Assembly (NCBI GenBank): GCA_000237975.1
Contig: CP003179.1
Coordinates: 1,922,001-1,986,000, forward strand
Length of the DNA stretch: 64,000 nucleotides
Source of the DNA: Sulfobacillus acidophilus DSM 10332
GTDB lineage: Bacteria > Bacillota > Sulfobacillia > Sulfobacillales > Sulfobacillaceae
Direction: 5' to 3'
This document shows positions 55,872 to 64,000 of the stretch, in pieces (position 1 is the first letter of the stretch; each line of letters opens with the position of its first letter). Position numbers and translations under genes: made by a program. The notes under the pieces are model-generated. The model was not told the origin of the DNA. It did no database searches and saw only the letters and a list, made by a program, of their open reading frames with translations.

Positions 55872-57071
55872 TCATGGGCGTCCGTCTTTCGGGAGCCCCA
55901 ATACCCGTTCGGCGATGACGTTCTTTTGAATCTCCGAAGTGCCGGCAAAAATGGTTTCGGCACGAGACCACAAAAACGCGCGATGCAAATCACCCCCGGC
56001 CAAACTGTCCAAGCCTCCCGCGAAAGGCATGGCGCCCCCCAGTACGTCCATGGCCAGTTCCCCCAGGCGCTTATGCATTTCGCTGTAATAGAGCTTGAGC
56101 ATCGACGCTTCGGGTCCCAAACGGCTTTTCGTTTGTAGCTGCGTAATCACCTGATAGCCATGAAACCGTAAAATCTCAATCTCACTCCAGAGTTCCATAA
56201 AACGCTGCCGGTAATGGGCGTCGTCGGCGATGGGGCCGTTTTCCCCTCGCGATTGGCGAGCCGCATCGAGTAATGTGTCAAATTCCCGCCGATAGTGCGC
56301 ATGCCGGCCGACAATGGTCGTACCGCGTTCAAAGGACAAGATGGTGTTGGCGATCCGCCAGCCGTCGTTAACCGCCCCCACGACATTCTCCCGGGCGGTG
56401 CGGGCCTCGTTAAACGTGACACTATTGAAGTGGGCCTCACCCGTCAGTTGGACCAGCGGTTCCACCGTTACCCCGACCTGGTGCATCGGCACTAACAAAA
56501 AGGTGATGCCGCGGTGTTTAGGTGCCGAGGCGTCGGTACGGGCCAACACAAAGCACCAGTCCGCCAAATGAGCATAGGAGGTCCAAATTTTCTGGCCGGT
56601 GATAACCCACTCGTCGCCGTCCAATACCGCCCGGGTGGTTAGAGAGGCTAAATCGGAGCCGGCATTGGGTTCGGAATAGCCCTGGCACCAGATCTCGTCC
56701 CCGGCCAAAAGGGGGGGGATAAATCGTCGTTTCTGATCCTCGGTGCCTTCGACCAAGAGCGTCGGCCCCAAAAGCCCTTTGCCTAGGCCGTTGACGCCGG
56801 CCGGAGCATTGGCGCGGGCGCATTCTTCCGAGAAAATCACCTCCTCCACCCAGGTCAGTCCTTGCCCGCCATATTCTTTGGGCCACGACAAGCCCGCCAA
56901 TCCATGCGCATAGACCGTCCGCTCCCAGCAAAGCCCTACTTCGGCCTGTTCTTGGGGATTCCGCGGGTAGGGATGTTTAGACGTTCCCCACCCCTCCGGC
57001 AATACCTCCGTCAGAAAAGACCGCACGCGCTCCCGAAATGCCTCGTGTTCGGCGCTAAAGCGAATATCCAT
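55872..57071 (-). CDS. Acyl-CoA dehydrogenase, catalytic-type subunit
   Basis: ATG 57071 (MDIRFSAEHEAFRERV) lies nine bases after GGAGG; ATG 57077 is too close to it. The 399-residue flavoprotein has the ACAD motifs LAGLSWPKEYGGQG, IWCQGYSEPNAGSDLASL, WVITGQKIWTSYAH and the C-terminal FAD/acyl motif TIFAGTSEIQKNVIAERVLG. It introduces the 2,3 double bond in acyl-CoA. The gene overlaps by 17 bp the other dehydrogenase gene. This pair resembles the heteromeric FadE/ChsE enzymes of actinobacterial steroid side-chain degradation. Confidence 0.88.
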   Translation of the reverse strand: MDIRFSAEHEAFRERVRSFLTEVLPEGWGTSKHPYPRNPQEQAEVGLCWERTVYAHGLAGLSWPKEYGGQGLTWVEEVIFSEECARANAPAGVNGLGKGLLGPTLLVEGTEDQKRRFIPPLLAGDEIWCQGYSEPNAGSDLASLTTRAVLDGDEWVITGQKIWTSYAHLADWCFVLARTDASAPKHRGITFLLVPMHQVGVTVEPLVQLTGEAHFNSVTFNEARTARENVVGAVNDGWRIANTILSFERGTTIVGRHAHYRREFDTLLDAARQSRGENGPIADDAHYRQRFMELWSEIEILRFHGYQVITQLQTKSRLGPEASMLKLYYSEMHKRLGELAMDVLGGAMPFAGGLDSLAGGDLHRAFLWSRAETIFAGTSEIQKNVIAERVLGLPKDGRP

Positions 57072-58203
57072 GCCCATCCCCCTCCTCGAACCGTCCGTCA
57101 ATGATCCGCCGGGCCATCTGCTCACGCAAGTCGGTCGACCGGCCCAATTGGGAAGCCAGCCGCCAGGCACGCTTGAAATAGAGGTGGACATCGCTATCCC
57201 AGGTAAAGGCGATGCCTCCGTGCAGCTGAATGGCATCACCGGTGACCCGCCGAGCCATGTCCCCGGCGTATGCCTTGGCCAGCTTGGCATAGAGCGGCCC
57301 GTCGGAATCCCCTTCGCTCACCGTCCATGCGGCATAACGATTCGCCACCCGGGCGCTTTCCAATAACAGATAGTCGTCGGCGGCGGCATGTTTGACCGCC
57401 TGAAACCGACCGACCGGTCCCCCAAACTGTTCGCGGACTTTGACATACTCCAGCGTAAGGCGAAACACTTCTTCCGCCACCCCCAGCGCCTCTTGGGCCA
57501 GCGCCGCCAGCGCGATGGTACGGGCGCGCTGCCAAGCCTCGGCGCCGGGCCGGACGACATCCGCCTCGTCCAACGCGTAACCGTCCAGGCTGAGCGCGGC
57601 CATCGGATAGGAGCCGTCCAGACTCTGAAGCGGTTCAATCGCCAAACCGGGCCGGCCGGGCTCCAACAGGGCCAGAAACACCCCGCCGATCTCGGTCGAG
57701 TAGGCCGGCGTCAGCACGAGGCCGGCCACTTCGGCAAAAGGCACGAAGGTGCGTCGTCCGAATAGCCGGATACGTCCTTGCCGTTTCACGGATTGCACCC
57801 CGCCGGTCTCAAACCCGCCTTGACCGTCACCCCAGGCGATGGTGGGAATAGTCTTTCCGGCCGCGATCGCGGGAAGCCACCGTTCTCGCACCTGGTTGTC
57901 CCCCCAGGATTCTAAAATGGCGGTGACCACATAACTTTCCGCCAAAGGAAACGGTAACAAGGCTTGCCCGGCGGCCTCAAACACGAGGGCATAATCCAAG
58001 AGCGTCAAATGGCTGCCGCCATACGCTTCCGAAAGGTTACCTCCCAGAATCCCCTGGTCGGCTAACTTACCGACTAGCCGTCGGGCCACCCCCGCCCCCT
58101 CTCGATAGGCATCGCGACATAGACCGGGTCCTGCCTCCCGGCGCATCAAACCCAGTGCGCTGTCGTACACCATGAACTGCTCGTCCGAATAACTAAAGTC
58201 CAT
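57055..58203 (-). CDS. Acyl-CoA dehydrogenase family protein, probable partner subunit
   Basis: ATG 58203 follows GGAGGGGG. The 382-residue protein has the ACAD fold, with LADQGILGGNLSEAYGGSHL, EAAGQALLPFPLAESYV, YVKVREQFGGPVGRFQAVKH and QLHGGIAFTWDSDVHLYFKRA. It lacks the TSEIQ-type C-terminal motif present in its neighbour, and the middle strand motifs are divergent. In alpha2beta2 dehydrogenases each subunit supplies part of the site; this could be the non-catalytic or substrate-binding half. That is inference from the pairing. Confidence 0.82.
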   Translation of the reverse strand: MDFSYSDEQFMVYDSALGLMRREAGPGLCRDAYREGAGVARRLVGKLADQGILGGNLSEAYGGSHLTLLDYALVFEAAGQALLPFPLAESYVVTAILESWGDNQVRERWLPAIAAGKTIPTIAWGDGQGGFETGGVQSVKRQGRIRLFGRRTFVPFAEVAGLVLTPAYSTEIGGVFLALLEPGRPGLAIEPLQSLDGSYPMAALSLDGYALDEADVVRPGAEAWQRARTIALAALAQEALGVAEEVFRLTLEYVKVREQFGGPVGRFQAVKHAAADDYLLLESARVANRYAAWTVSEGDSDGPLYAKLAKAYAGDMARRVTGDAIQLHGGIAFTWDSDVHLYFKRAWRLASQLGRSTDLREQMARRIIDGRFEEGDGHGYSL

Positions 58204-58228: not shown

Positions 58229-59449
58229 TTAAAGCGTTTCGACAAAGTCCCGCATCAATCGGCCCACCACTTGGGGCTGTTCCTCTTGCACCCAGTGCGC
58301 CGCCTCGGCCACGACGCGGGTTCCTACATCGGGTCGAACGCGGCGGCAGGCCGCCTCCCAATCGGCGACCCGGGGCTGGCAATATGGATCATAAGCGCCC
58401 CAAATCATGAGAAGCGGATGCCTGACCCGGCTTAGAGTCACCAGCGGGGACGTGCGGTTCGCCCCGGCATCGCGCATCCGGCGTGGTCCCAGACGGGTTT
58501 GCCAAATATTGTGATAGGTGGTATAAACCGCTTGGCGCGATACGGCTTCGGGTCGTCGGAAGTGAATCGCCTTCAAATTGGCTTCTACCACGGCTAGACG
58601 ATCATCGAAAAGCGGATTGGGCGGAAAGCGCCGCTCTTCCACGGGCCAATGACGGGACGGCTCGCCGGTCCGCCCGGCAAGAGAAACCAATATTCCGGCC
58701 CGAGCCACAGGTGGTTGACGCTCCATCAACGCCAGCGCCAGGTAGGCGCCAAACGAGTAGCCGCCTAATATGGCTCCGTCGCCCGCCACCCCCCGCACCG
58801 CATCGGCCAAAATGTCCAAGTAGCGTCCGTAGTCGAAATTCCCGGGCCAATCGTCCGACTCGCCATAACCCGGCAGGTCCAGCAGCCAGACATCCAAGTT
58901 CCCCAGGTGCGGCATCACGCTCCGCCAATGGGTCCAACTTCCATAAACCCCATGCAGCAGTACCAGCCGTGGCCCCTCTCCGGGGCGATGAACGGCGTGC
59001 AGAGTGATATCACCCACTTGGAGACGATGGTGCGTCAGACCTTCCACCCGCCAGCCGCGCACGACCTCCACCATCGCCGCTTTGAGGCTTAAGGCCGGCA
59101 CGGCCGTTATACGGGCAGTCCGCACGGCCGCCAACGCATCCTCCAAATCGGCGCCTTGATAAACCAGCGCCAACGCGGCCACCGCCGCCGTGCGGGAGTT
59201 CCCGGCTTGGCAATAGACCCCCACGGTCGCGCCTGCCCGGGCCCATTGGGCCACCCGGCGCGCCGCCTGACCGAGCATAGCATGCTGGCCGGGCATCTCG
59301 TCTTGCAACGGAAAGTGATCGACCGGAATCGCGTAGCCGGGGGGAAACGCTTCCGCCCGCAAGTCCACCAGCCGGGTAGCGCCGTGGCGAATCATGTTAG
59401 ACGCCTCGGCGGCGTCTCCCATCCAAATGTTGGGGGTTAACCGATTCAT
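58229..59449 (-). CDS. Fusion of a tyrosine-phosphatase-like domain and an alpha/beta-hydrolase
   Basis: The 406-residue protein joins two enzymes. Residues about 1-130 form a dual-specificity/tyrosine-phosphatase-like domain: RLTPNIWMGDAAEASNMI, VDLRAEAFPPGY and the P-loop VYCQAGNSRTAAVAAL, which keeps the Cx5R core but has Tyr instead of the usual His before Cys. Residues about 145-405 are an alpha/beta-hydrolase with the oxyanion region VLLHGVYGSWTHW, nucleophile Ser in GGYSFGAYLAL and His in AEAAHWVQEEQPQ. The start overlaps the MaoC stop by 4 bp (ATGA). In this operon it may hydrolyse an acyl-CoA or ester intermediate. Confidence 0.8.
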   Translation of the reverse strand: MNRLTPNIWMGDAAEASNMIRHGATRLVDLRAEAFPPGYAIPVDHFPLQDEMPGQHAMLGQAARRVAQWARAGATVGVYCQAGNSRTAAVAALALVYQGADLEDALAAVRTARITAVPALSLKAAMVEVVRGWRVEGLTHHRLQVGDITLHAVHRPGEGPRLVLLHGVYGSWTHWRSVMPHLGNLDVWLLDLPGYGESDDWPGNFDYGRYLDILADAVRGVAGDGAILGGYSFGAYLALALMERQPPVARAGILVSLAGRTGEPSRHWPVEERRFPPNPLFDDRLAVVEANLKAIHFRRPEAVSRQAVYTTYHNIWQTRLGPRRMRDAGANRTSPLVTLSRVRHPLLMIWGAYDPYCQPRVADWEAACRRVRPDVGTRVVAEAAHWVQEEQPQVVGRLMRDFVETL

Positions 59450-59865
59450 CGTTCACCCTTGGTTACCGGTTTTTGGGACAAGGGGGTTAGCACCGCCTCC
59501 CCGCTTACCGCAACCCGGCCGTCGTCGTGCCGAAGGACAAGGTCCAGCACCACCCGTCCGTCGCCATCCACCGAAATCACCCGAGCCGTGGCCGTCAGTG
59601 GCTCCTGAGGCCGAACCATGGTCCGGAAGCGTACGCCATACCGCTCGATCCGCGATCCCGGCGGCGCCGCTTGACCCATAAGCCGCGCTAACACGCCCAT
59701 GCTCAGCATGCCGTGCGCAATAACCCCGGGAAGGCCAAACCCGCGAGCGCGATCCTCGTCATAGTGAATAGGGTTGAAATCGCCGGACGCTCCCGCGTAC
59801 CGCACAATCTGTTCCCGGCTCAATTGCATGGTTCCGAGGCTAACCGTGTCTCCCGCCTGCCACAT
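59446..59865 (-). CDS. MaoC-like dehydratase, catalytic subunit
   Basis: The 139-residue hot-dog-fold protein contains the R-hydratase signature GASGDFNPIHYDEDRARGFG, with its Asp/His pair, and LPGVIAHGMLSMGVLARL. It should hydrate enoyl-CoA. ATG 59865 directly follows the stop of the neighbouring MaoC-N gene, with GGAGG 11 bases upstream. It likely forms a heteromer with that neighbour, as in ChsH1/ChsH2 or HadBC. Confidence 0.88.
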   Translation of the reverse strand: MWQAGDTVSLGTMQLSREQIVRYAGASGDFNPIHYDEDRARGFGLPGVIAHGMLSMGVLARLMGQAAPPGSRIERYGVRFRTMVRPQEPLTATARVISVDGDGRVVLDLVLRHDDGRVAVSGEAVLTPLSQKPVTKGER

Positions 59866-60309
59866 TTACGCCACCCCCTCCGGTATTATCAGGACCGACC
59901 GCGAGTGAAACGCCGTGTCGCCATCCTCATGCACGCCCTCCGCCATAATGGTCACCAACGTCATCGTTCCCCGTCCCCCTTGAACCTGACGAACGTCGGA
60001 CACCCATCCCGTCACGGTAATGCGATCCCCGGCACAAGCAACTTTTCCGTAGATAAATTCCTGCTCGCCATGAATTACCCCGGCCCGCGGCAATTGAAGA
60101 CCCGGAATAGGATTTCGGCCAAGTGTCACGTAAAACGTCGGCGGTACCGGTACGCTCCGATATCCGGCACTTTGGGCCGCCTGCTCATCAAAGTAGATGG
60201 GGTCGGTCTCTCCCAGGGCTTCCGCGAACCGGCGAATCGCGCCCTTTTCAATCTCATGCACGGCCGGCACGCTTTTTTCGCCAACCCGGCCCGGATCGTA
60301 ATCCCACAT
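59866..60309 (-). CDS. MaoC N-terminal-like (FAS1-type) dehydratase subunit
   Basis: ATG 60309 follows GGGGAGG; the frame upstream lies within the SDR gene. The 147-residue protein has a single hot-dog domain with EIEKGAIRRFAEALGETDPI, VPPTFYVTL and HGEQEFIYGKVACAGDRITV. This N-terminal-type domain normally lacks the catalytic Asp/His pair and binds the substrate tail, working with the adjacent catalytic MaoC. The two genes are separated by no bases. Confidence 0.85.
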   Translation of the reverse strand: MWDYDPGRVGEKSVPAVHEIEKGAIRRFAEALGETDPIYFDEQAAQSAGYRSVPVPPTFYVTLGRNPIPGLQLPRAGVIHGEQEFIYGKVACAGDRITVTGWVSDVRQVQGGRGTMTLVTIMAEGVHEDGDTAFHSRSVLIIPEGVA

Positions 60310-60313
60310 GGTT

Positions 60314-61075
60314 TTACCTCCCCGATCCGCCTGCCGGATGGACATCGGGACCGCCGTCCAAATAGATGACCGTTCCGTTCACATACCCGGCCCGGACAAT
60401 CCACAATATGGCCTCCGCGACATCCTCGGGGGTACCCAGACGTCCGACCGAACGGGTTCGGGCCGCCTCGGCAATGCGTGCGCCGTCGTTCTGATACAAC
60501 ACTTGGCGGGCGGCCTCGGTGAGAACCGGTCCGGGAGCGATGCAGTTGACTCGTACCGCCGGCCCCCATTCCGCCGCCAAGGTCCGCGTCATATTCACCA
60601 AGCCTGCCTTGCTGGCGCCATAGGCAACCATGTTGGGCGCCATATCCCGCCCGGCCGTGGAGCCGATGTTGATAATCGAGCCGCCCTTTTTTTCCAATAG
60701 CGGCAAGAATGTGCGGGACACCACAAACGGCCCGACCAAATTAATGGCCACCACCTGCGAGAACCCATTGGGTGACAACCGGCGGGCCGGAGCCGCAAAT
60801 GATCCGCCGGCGTTATTGACCAACACGTCGAGGTGGTCGAAATGTTCTTCGACTAACGCCGCGGCGTGCTCAATCTGATCGGCCCGGCGCACATCCGCCG
60901 GTAAGACCAAAGCCTCGGCCAACTCGGGCCAGCGGTCCCGGACTTGGGCCAGCTTCTCCCGGTTCCGCGCCAAAAGGGCCAGCCGATACCCGGCCCGCGC
61001 CAAATGCACGGCCACGATTTCACCAATGCCCTGCGACGCTCCGGTCACCAGCGCGGTTTTCTGTGTAGGCAGCAT
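60314..61075 (-). CDS. Short-chain dehydrogenase/reductase (SDR)
   Basis: The 253-residue Rossmann enzyme has the cofactor motif ALVTGASQGIGEIVAVHLAR, LDVLVNNAGGSF, the catalytic Ser in INIGSTAGRD and YGASKAGLVNMTRTLAAEWG (Tyr-x3-Lys). It probably oxidises the hydroxyacyl-CoA formed by the dehydratase in this operon. ATG 61075 follows AAGGAG. The C-terminal GTVIYLDGGPDVHP is standard. It ends four bases before the MaoC-N start. Confidence 0.88.
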   Translation of the reverse strand: MLPTQKTALVTGASQGIGEIVAVHLARAGYRLALLARNREKLAQVRDRWPELAEALVLPADVRRADQIEHAAALVEEHFDHLDVLVNNAGGSFAAPARRLSPNGFSQVVAINLVGPFVVSRTFLPLLEKKGGSIINIGSTAGRDMAPNMVAYGASKAGLVNMTRTLAAEWGPAVRVNCIAPGPVLTEAARQVLYQNDGARIAEAARTRSVGRLGTPEDVAEAILWIVRAGYVNGTVIYLDGGPDVHPAGGSGR

Positions 61076-61143: not shown

Positions 61144-62493
61144 CTAGGAAACGCTTTGCCGTCCGATACCGGATGGCCGATCCGGACGGTGAAACCATGG
61201 ACCGCGGCCAAAAAATAGCAACACCCCATACACCACCACCCCAACCCAGCAAACGTCCAACCAGGCCGCCCAACCGGCGCCCGTTACCACCAGAAACGTA
61301 ATGGCGCCCGCAAACCCGGCCAACACATACTGCACAAACGACCACAACGCCCAGCCGGTTCCCTGCAGAGCCGGATGAATGTCCTCAAGGTTTTCCGAGT
61401 AAAGCGCCATCCAGGGACCAAACCCGATGCCCAGCAGAACACCCTGAAGCGAGGTGTAAAGAATCATGGTGGAAGGGGGCACCGGGTGGCCGATAAGCCG
61501 GACCCAGAAGAACATGAAGACAACCACCCCGATGACGCCGATAAACGAAAAGAGCTTTCGGAGTTGTAGCCAATCGGAGACCAGACCCACCACGATAAGC
61601 GACCCGAGATTCGCCAACCAGAAGTAGCTGGCAATCGAAGCCGCCTCGGCGGCCGGGTATTTAAAGACCGTGGACAGGTACAACGGTCCAAACGCCGTGG
61701 TAAAGTAGTAAACCAACAAAAACAGCACAATCCCGACCGCCAAGGCCCAAATGCGACCGGAACGGTAGACCAGGCGCGGGTCAGCCACCGTCTCTTTCAC
61801 TTCGCGGGCTCGTAGCGCCGCCGTTTGCGCCTCCGTATGGTTATGGACGATTTGTGCGCGCAGGCCCGGACTTAAATCGCGGATCAAAAAAGCGACCGCG
61901 ATACTGATGATGAAGCAAACGCTACCCATAATCACGAACTGAGATTGCCAGGCGTCGTGAAACAGAGGGAGCGTCGCACCGGCCACGCCGGCGGCCAGGA
62001 AGTTCGCGCCCACCGGGCCGAAAGTCCAGAGCCCAAACCCCAGAGCCCGTCCCACACGGGGGGTAAAGTCCCGCACCAGCCCTGTGGTGGCCGGCAGCAC
62101 AAGCCCGAGAATAACCGCCATAATAAGGCGCACCATGATAAAATCCAACGTGTTATGCACCAAAACCATCGAAAAGACCGCGATCGACGTGACAAAGGTG
62201 CCCAGCGCGACAAAGAAGGTACGCCCATATCGGTCAAAGCGCGCTCCTACCAGTAACGACACAATCCCCGAAACCATCGTGGTGAGCCCGACGATAAGGC
62301 CGTAACCCAATAACGTCAGTTTCAGGTAAGGCAGCAGCACCGGCGCCACCGGCGCCAGCTCGCCCTCATAGTTGGCCACGATGTTGGCAATGATGACCAT
62401 CACCAAGAGTCCGACTTGAATCCATCCCCGCGGGTAGATATCGATGTCGCGCCGTGAAAACCAGCGTGCCATGCGCGGAGCTTCAACAGCCAT
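61144..62493 (-). CDS. MFS transporter (organic-acid/metabolite type)
   Basis: The 449-residue protein has 12 spans. The inter-helix loop GARFDRYGRTFFVALGTFV matches the MFS signature, and the PRGWIQVGLLVMVIIANIVA start and a long central loop (about 205-235) suggest a metabolite carrier. Placed between the acyl-CoA ligase and SDR genes, it may import the carboxylic acid broken down by this operon. ATG 62493 after GGGAGGG. Confidence 0.78.
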   Translation of the reverse strand: MAVEAPRMARWFSRRDIDIYPRGWIQVGLLVMVIIANIVANYEGELAPVAPVLLPYLKLTLLGYGLIVGLTTMVSGIVSLLVGARFDRYGRTFFVALGTFVTSIAVFSMVLVHNTLDFIMVRLIMAVILGLVLPATTGLVRDFTPRVGRALGFGLWTFGPVGANFLAAGVAGATLPLFHDAWQSQFVIMGSVCFIISIAVAFLIRDLSPGLRAQIVHNHTEAQTAALRAREVKETVADPRLVYRSGRIWALAVGIVLFLLVYYFTTAFGPLYLSTVFKYPAAEAASIASYFWLANLGSLIVVGLVSDWLQLRKLFSFIGVIGVVVFMFFWVRLIGHPVPPSTMILYTSLQGVLLGIGFGPWMALYSENLEDIHPALQGTGWALWSFVQYVLAGFAGAITFLVVTGAGWAAWLDVCWVGVVVYGVLLFFGRGPWFHRPDRPSGIGRQSVS

Positions 62494-62628: not shown

Positions 62629-64000
62629 TCATGGGGACGCCCACTCCTTCAGCGTTCTTTTCAAAACCTTGCCGACCGCGTTTCTCGGCAACGCCTCGAC
62701 GACCTTAAGGGCTTTGGGCACTTTGTAATGAGCCAATATCTGCCCGACGTAACTTAACACCTCATTTTCGTCGATTACCGTGCCGGGTTTAGCGGTCACA
62801 AATGCCACCGCCTCTTCGCCGAGCCGTTCCGAAGGCACGCCGACAACAGCCGCCTCGGCCACGGACGGGTGCTGCACTAACACGTCCTCCACGTCCCGGG
62901 GGTAGATGTTAAATCCGCCCCGAATGATGACGTCCTTTTTGCGGTCGACAATCGTTAAATAGCCGTCCTCGTCCATGCGCGCCATGTCGCCGGTATGAAG
63001 CCAACCGTCGCCATCCAATGCTTCCCGGGACGCCTCCGGTCGCCGGAAGTAGCCTGGACTGACGTTGTCCCCCCGCACCCACAGTTCCCCGACCTCGCCG
63101 GACGGTAAGTCCCGGCCGTCCATATCCACGATGCGCGCCTCGACCCCGGCGACGAGAACTCCCACCGTGCCCGGTTTAATCGGCATATCGCGCCGATGGC
63201 CGCTCACCACCGGCGCCGCCTCCGACAGTCCGTAGCCCTCGAGGACATCCGCATGAAATTTGGCCTGAAAGGCTTCTATGAGCGGAACCGGGCAGGGCGC
63301 CGATCCGGATGAAACCGTCTCCAAGCTGGACAGATCGTAACGGTTCGCCTCAGGGCTGTTGACCATCGCATAGAGCATCGCCGGTACGGCGGAAAATCCC
63401 CGCACCCGGTGGCGTTGAATCGCTTCGAAGACTTCCACGACGTCAAATTTCCGAAATATGACGATGGACCCGCCTAGCATGGCCGTCACCGTAGTCACCG
63501 TAAATCCGAAAATATGTGCCAGCGGCAGCACGCCGAGCGTCACCCCACGATCTCGGTCCGGACTGCTGGCGATGACCTGCTGTGCATTGGCATAGAGGTT
63601 TTTGTGGGTCAACATGACGCCTTTGGGAGAGCCGGTGGTACCGGAGGTATAAAGAATGACGGCCAAATCCTCTTCCCCCGGGTCGGGTCGTACCGCTTGA
63701 GGGACCTCCACGTTATCCCAAAGGCACGACACCCGATCCGACGGGTCCGCCGACCAAATCCGGGGGGCAACGCCGGCGTCTTGGACCGCCCCAAGCACTT
63801 TGTCGAGCGAACTCCGGTCGGTGAATATCCCGACAGGCTCGGCGTCTTGCAGAATATGCGCGATTTCCGGGCGCCCCAAAAGATACATAACCGGCACGAC
63901 CACCGCACCGGCCATCATCGCCCCTTGATAGACGAAGAAAACTTCGGCCCGATTGGGCATGGAAACCAGGATGCGATCGCCCGGTTGAACTCCTGTGGCT
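62629..64000 (-). CDS. Acyl-CoA synthetase (AMP-forming), 5' end beyond the window
   Basis: The frame is open to the window end, so the N terminus is missing; 456 residues are visible. The adenylate-forming motifs are intact: YTSGTTGSPKGVMLTHKN (phosphate loop), VLEGYGLSEAAPVVSGH, WLHTGDMARMDEDGYLTIVD and the hinge DRKKDVIIRGGFNIYPRDVE. The catalytic Lys lies in PRNAVGKVLKRTLK. It activates a carboxylic acid to its CoA thioester, the entry step for the cluster on its 3' side. Chain length or aromatic preference cannot be told. Confidence 0.92.
   Translation of the reverse strand, partial: ATGVQPGDRILVSMPNRAEVFFVYQGAMMAGAVVVPVMYLLGRPEIAHILQDAEPVGIFTDRSSLDKVLGAVQDAGVAPRIWSADPSDRVSCLWDNVEVPQAVRPDPGEEDLAVILYTSGTTGSPKGVMLTHKNLYANAQQVIASSPDRDRGVTLGVLPLAHIFGFTVTTVTAMLGGSIVIFRKFDVVEVFEAIQRHRVRGFSAVPAMLYAMVNSPEANRYDLSSLETVSSGSAPCPVPLIEAFQAKFHADVLEGYGLSEAAPVVSGHRRDMPIKPGTVGVLVAGVEARIVDMDGRDLPSGEVGELWVRGDNVSPGYFRRPEASREALDGDGWLHTGDMARMDEDGYLTIVDRKKDVIIRGGFNIYPRDVEDVLVQHPSVAEAAVVGVPSERLGEEAVAFVTAKPGTVIDENEVLSYVGQILAHYKVPKALKVVEALPRNAVGKVLKRTLKEWASP

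Follow-up and report, generated by a model that had tools for sequence, protein, structure and literature searches.

The known architecture nearest to that of the protein described here is found in mammalian soluble epoxide hydrolase (sEH, EPHX2): in both, an N-terminal phosphatase precedes a C-terminal alpha/beta-hydrolase. The phosphatase of sEH has the HAD fold, and the nucleophile of its C-terminal domain is an Asp. The N-terminal domain of sEH is a lipid-phosphate phosphatase and the C-terminal one an epoxide hydrolase, each active alone (PMC11676941). Among the Cys-based dual-specificity phosphatases (DSPs), human DUSP28 has a Tyr before the catalytic Cys, and changing this Tyr to His made the activity fall, not rise (PMC5679558). 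The activity of DUSP28 is very low, its P-loop contains the bulky residues Asn105 and Arg107, and it carries no hydrolase domain. The C-C hydrolases CarC, BphD and HsaD, together with related serine esterases, have the alpha/beta-hydrolase fold with a Ser-Asp-His triad and lack an N-terminal phosphatase. Operons of the PimC/PimD, IpdE2 and HadA/HadB types contain paired acyl-CoA dehydrogenases (ACADs) and paired MaoC-type hydratases, and we know of no phosphatase-hydrolase fusion in them.

The window, which is the whole stretch of DNA analysed here (64 kb, C1:1922001-1986000, from a two-contig genome totalling 3,557,831 bases, of which the first contig has 3,472,898), has the same paired dehydrogenases and hydratases, and next to them a single gene for a DSP fused to an alpha/beta-hydrolase (Table 1). 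The start of this gene and the stop of the MaoC gene share the bases ATGA (59446-59449), a 4-bp overlap from which the first-pass annotation had assigned the gene to the pathway; all the fusion loci found lie in acyl-CoA operons. On the downstream side, the small ACAD subunit most likely begins at an ATG (MDFSYSDEQF) near 58203, about 25 bp past the fusion stop, while the large subunit is 70-87% identical across the related loci. The fusion belongs to an acyl-CoA catabolic operon, in which neighbours of the fusion gene match the PimC/PimD, IpdE2 and HadA/HadB models, in every case below the NCBIfam curated cutoffs. A reading of the locus as a defence system was rejected, PADLOC giving no match.

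Table 1. Features of the fusion gene and its neighbours in the window
Feature	Coordinates	Strand	Remarks
Large acyl-CoA dehydrogenase subunit (PimC-like)	55872..57071	minus	Likely start MDIRFSAEHEAF; listed ORF opens at 57290
Small acyl-CoA dehydrogenase subunit (PimD/IpdE2-like)	57055..58203	minus	Next gene downstream of the fusion
DSP + alpha/beta-hydrolase fusion gene	59449 to 58229	minus	ATG start, 406 aa, no internal stops
Alpha/beta-hydrolase domain	58229..59041	minus	Fusion protein residues about 137-406
DSP domain	59048..59449	minus	Fusion protein residues 1-134
MaoC-like hydratase (HadB type)	59446..59865	minus	Pfam PF01575; conserved next to the fusion at every related fusion locus
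FAS1-DH/HadA-like hydratase subunit	59866..60345	minus	Pfam PF13452; conserved neighbour
Short-chain dehydrogenase/reductase (SDR)	60314..61075	minus	Pfam adh_short_C2
MFS transporter	61144..62493	minus	Pfam MFS_1
AMP-forming acyl-CoA ligase	62629..64000	minus	Runs past the window end; full gene 521 aa, L042:8630-10195

The likeness to sEH extends to the setting, in that the substrates of sEH are lipid-related and the fusion lies in an acyl-CoA operon. In both domain types, however, the window protein falls outside the sEH family: its phosphatase is a Cys-based DSP and not a HAD enzyme, and its putative nucleophile is Ser232 (GGYSFG, invariant) and not Asp. The resemblance is one of convergent architecture, and the fusion protein is a new combination of known domains. 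The first-pass annotation knew of no described enzyme with this domain order in beta-oxidation; this holds in the literature searched, but outside beta-oxidation sEH also places a phosphatase, of HAD type, before an alpha/beta-hydrolase. For a DSP/alpha/beta-hydrolase fusion we found no description in the literature searched, the coverage of which was partial.

A search of 154 genomes of the class returned six further full-length fusions, 40-71% identical, which are spread over five more genomes belonging to the order. Identity is 71-72% in genome G408, 47-48% in G409, 46-47% and 41-42% for the two copies in G386, 45-46% in G385 and 40-42% in G403. The six other genomes that carry the fusion or a solo DSP are all multi-contig assemblies. 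Since full-length fusions recur in five other genomes, the intact 406-aa frame is no product of a frame error joining two genes, one of the two conditions that the first-pass annotation had named as refuting its reading. A chance origin was likewise rejected, given that the whole architecture is conserved in seven proteins and that both domains are under purifying selection in two close pairs (dN/dS about 0.08-0.17, approximate values because dS exceeds 1 in most comparisons). Among 299 genomes sampled evenly across the phylum there was no other fusion. In a search of genome contigs, the only fusion among the matches listed (80 relatives) was on L050, the same contig as that of the G385 fusion, the remaining relatives listed being single hydrolases without Cx5R upstream; a single-sequence search of genome contigs gave no match, and in the plasmid collection there was no place covering 80% of the query. 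Four tandem alpha/beta-hydrolase genes, distant relatives of the window hydrolase domain, were seen in an alphaproteobacterial MAG (L061:8001-11376).

Every fusion locus has HadA- and MaoC-like genes, and all but that of G403 have both ACAD subunits; some loci also carry genes for an acyl-CoA ligase, SDR, crotonase or thiolase. Further along the G408 operon (L043:10804-14249) lie genes for an ADP-forming acyl-CoA ligase and for a thiolase of PRK08142 type, a family that other loci have and for which the window's genome (G000) gave no match. At a threshold of E below 1e-60, the ACAD small subunit was found in six of the 154 class genomes (G000, G408, G409, G380, G385 and G386), and all six have an intact DSP domain, although these co-occurrences are not independent events because the genomes are related.

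The P-loop of the window protein, VYCQAGNSRTAA, contains C80 and R86, with Tyr79 replacing His, and reads C80-QAGNS-R86-T87, that is, Cx5R followed by Ser/Thr. Across the six members of alignment A3 the loop is invariant except at residue 84, and C80, R86, D50 and S85 are all invariant; D50 lies upstream of the loop and, judging from its position, would be the general acid. The full protein just missed the Pfam DSPc cutoff (E 7.9e-8, 32.6 bits against 33.5), whereas the isolated domain passed it (35.7 bits); the solo homologue scored 56.4 bits. In a PDB profile search the best matches were a mouse DUSP (DUSP28-type structure, E 2.4e-12) and human DUSP28 (E 2.9e-10). An AF2 model of the isolated domain (pLDDT 89.7; the AF2 models in this work were built on 6-7 sequences) had DUSP28 as its top match in the VIA structural comparison (Z 17.7, rmsd 2.5, 133 residues aligned) and resembled many DUSPs at Z 15-17.7. 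Folding of the N-terminal half as something other than a phosphatase was rejected on the strength of this model and the profile matches, which together establish the domain as a predicted cysteine phosphatase of DSP type whose active-site residues are intact. The structure prediction that had been proposed as a check thus bore out the tyrosine-phosphatase-like domain with Tyr in place of His. That replacement is neither special nor unique, being shared with DUSP28, and Tyr79 argues neither for nor against activity because DUSP28 has the same residue and became less active when it was changed to His. At the positions of Asn105 and Arg107 of DUSP28 the window protein has Ala82 and Asn84. At residue 84 the window protein and that of G408 have Asn, the relatives Leu or Val, so activity may differ among them.

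That protein DUSPs are the closest solved structures fits the possibility that the DSP acts on Ser/Thr/Tyr of an enzyme or regulator and so tunes flux, as do the loss of the domain's cysteine in some lineages, which suits a regulatory role, and a solo form within an ACAD operon (both below). This narrower form of the explanation that we prefer is tentative, clearly the less probable case: neither a cognate kinase gene nor a phosphosite was identified in the operon, and the fold does not separate protein from small-molecule substrates.

The C-terminal half contains the motifs LLHGVYGS, GGYSFG (S232), GAYDPYCQP (D354) and AAHWVQ (H385) and matches Pfam Abhydrolase_6 with E 9.8e-21. The triad S232/D354/H385 is complete, as had been claimed, and invariant across the seven fusion proteins. 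With the AF2 model of this domain, CarC scored highest in VIA (Z 29.3), and CarC, BphD, HsaD and DxnB2 dominated the top at Z 27-29; identity to such C-C hydrolases and the related serine esterases is 16-21%. Alignment and model together establish a predicted serine alpha/beta-hydrolase with an intact triad. These leading matches, and the resemblance of the ACAD subunits to PimC/PimD and IpdE2, raise the possibility that the hydrolase is a meta-cleavage-product C-C hydrolase of aromatic or steroid-like ring breakdown. We consider this quite unlikely, since esterases and dehalogenases follow closely (Z 25-27) and no extradiol-dioxygenase-sized gene of the glyoxalase family, the family searched, stands beside the fusion loci.

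Two of the fusion proteins lack the catalytic cysteine. Where the others have Y-C-Q-A-G-x-S-R-T, P0006 (the second copy of G386, G386b) reads VGVFSETSGPSRG and P0007 (G403) reads VGICGHGQKDAAE; both fall outside the Cx5R pattern and both keep the hydrolase triad. G386 carries its two copies (L045:9492-10766 and L047:3456-4712) in different acyl-CoA operons, with the phosphatase intact in one and cysteine-less in the other. On the hydrolase tree G386b and G403 do not group, and a tree constrained to unite them is worse by 22.4 log units (AU p 0.0055); the cysteine was therefore probably lost twice, assuming that the ancestor had it. Between intact members, DSP identity (48-87%) equals or exceeds hydrolase identity (42-79%), whereas when one protein of the pair is cysteine-less the DSP domains drop to 26-35% and the hydrolase domains stay at 41-49%. 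Constraint on the DSP thus tracks the catalytic cysteine, and where the phosphatase is kept it would matter through catalysis. A ligand-binding or structural domain, whose pocket would hold a phosphate (for example that of CoA) and position the hydrolase substrate with no turnover, would explain why the DSP region persists in the cysteine-less members and why D29-L30-R31 is invariant. It is nevertheless an unlikely reading: the strong constraint on C80, R86, D50 and S85 in six members speaks against it, as does the drop in constraint once the cysteine is gone. The other suggestion of the first-pass annotation, a domain that senses a phosphorylated ligand, may apply, chiefly to the two cysteine-less proteins.

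The DSP of G380 (50-65% identical) is encoded on its own, in a solo gene of 146 aa. This gene begins some 40 bp beyond an ACAD gene of 70% identity, and a further ACAD gene lies no more than about 80 bp past it; between it and these flanking ACAD genes no hydrolase remnant was found. On the unrooted DSP tree it groups with the domains of G385 and G386a (support 85/87), and, judging by this grouping, the hydrolase may have been lost in G380. At L137:2116-5687 of G380, the ACAD small subunit has as near neighbours an LLM-class monooxygenase, an HsaB-like flavin reductase and a single long ORF in which an alpha/beta-hydrolase is joined to a LipP1-like lipase.

With two cysteine losses under an invariant triad, and a DSP standing alone in G380, the two activities look separable, an argument drawn from few lineages: the phosphatase appears dispensable for the hydrolase and seems able to serve without a fused one. 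The same observations argue against the suggestion of the first-pass annotation that phosphate and ester could be removed in one step. Coupled catalysis, with both domains acting in sequence on one substrate that bears both a phosphate group and an ester or thioester bond, could account for a single polypeptide whose domain order is conserved in seven proteins, yet we regard it as very improbable, given the two orthologues that lost C80 and kept the triad, and the persistence of the solo DSP.

We favour, as reasonably probable, the reading that this operon for acyl-CoA catabolism encodes a two-domain enzyme in which a pathway hydrolase is joined to an accessory, separable phosphatase. The hydrolase would perform the constant step, cleaving an ester, a thioester or a ring/C-C bond of an intermediate, with S232 attacking, D354 and H385 assisting and acyl-enzyme chemistry at S232. 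The phosphatase would strip phosphate from a small molecule, a lipid or a pathway protein through a phosphocysteine intermediate at C80, where R86 would bind the phosphate and D50 would act as the acid. Fusion would keep both activities in one transcript and one place, and a common substrate would not be needed. A bolder reading makes the protein a bacterial counterpart of sEH of separate origin, the founder of a new bifunctional family in which a Cys phosphatase clears lipid- or CoA-derived phosphate beside the pathway hydrolase; this we hold to be doubtful, though possible.

A signalling-type phosphatase under selection in an acyl-CoA operon suggests a phosphorylated intermediate or phospho-control of the pathway, of which we found no description for such operons in the literature searched. 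The predicted natural series of an active-type fusion, a dead-phosphatase fusion and a solo phosphatase makes this question directly testable.
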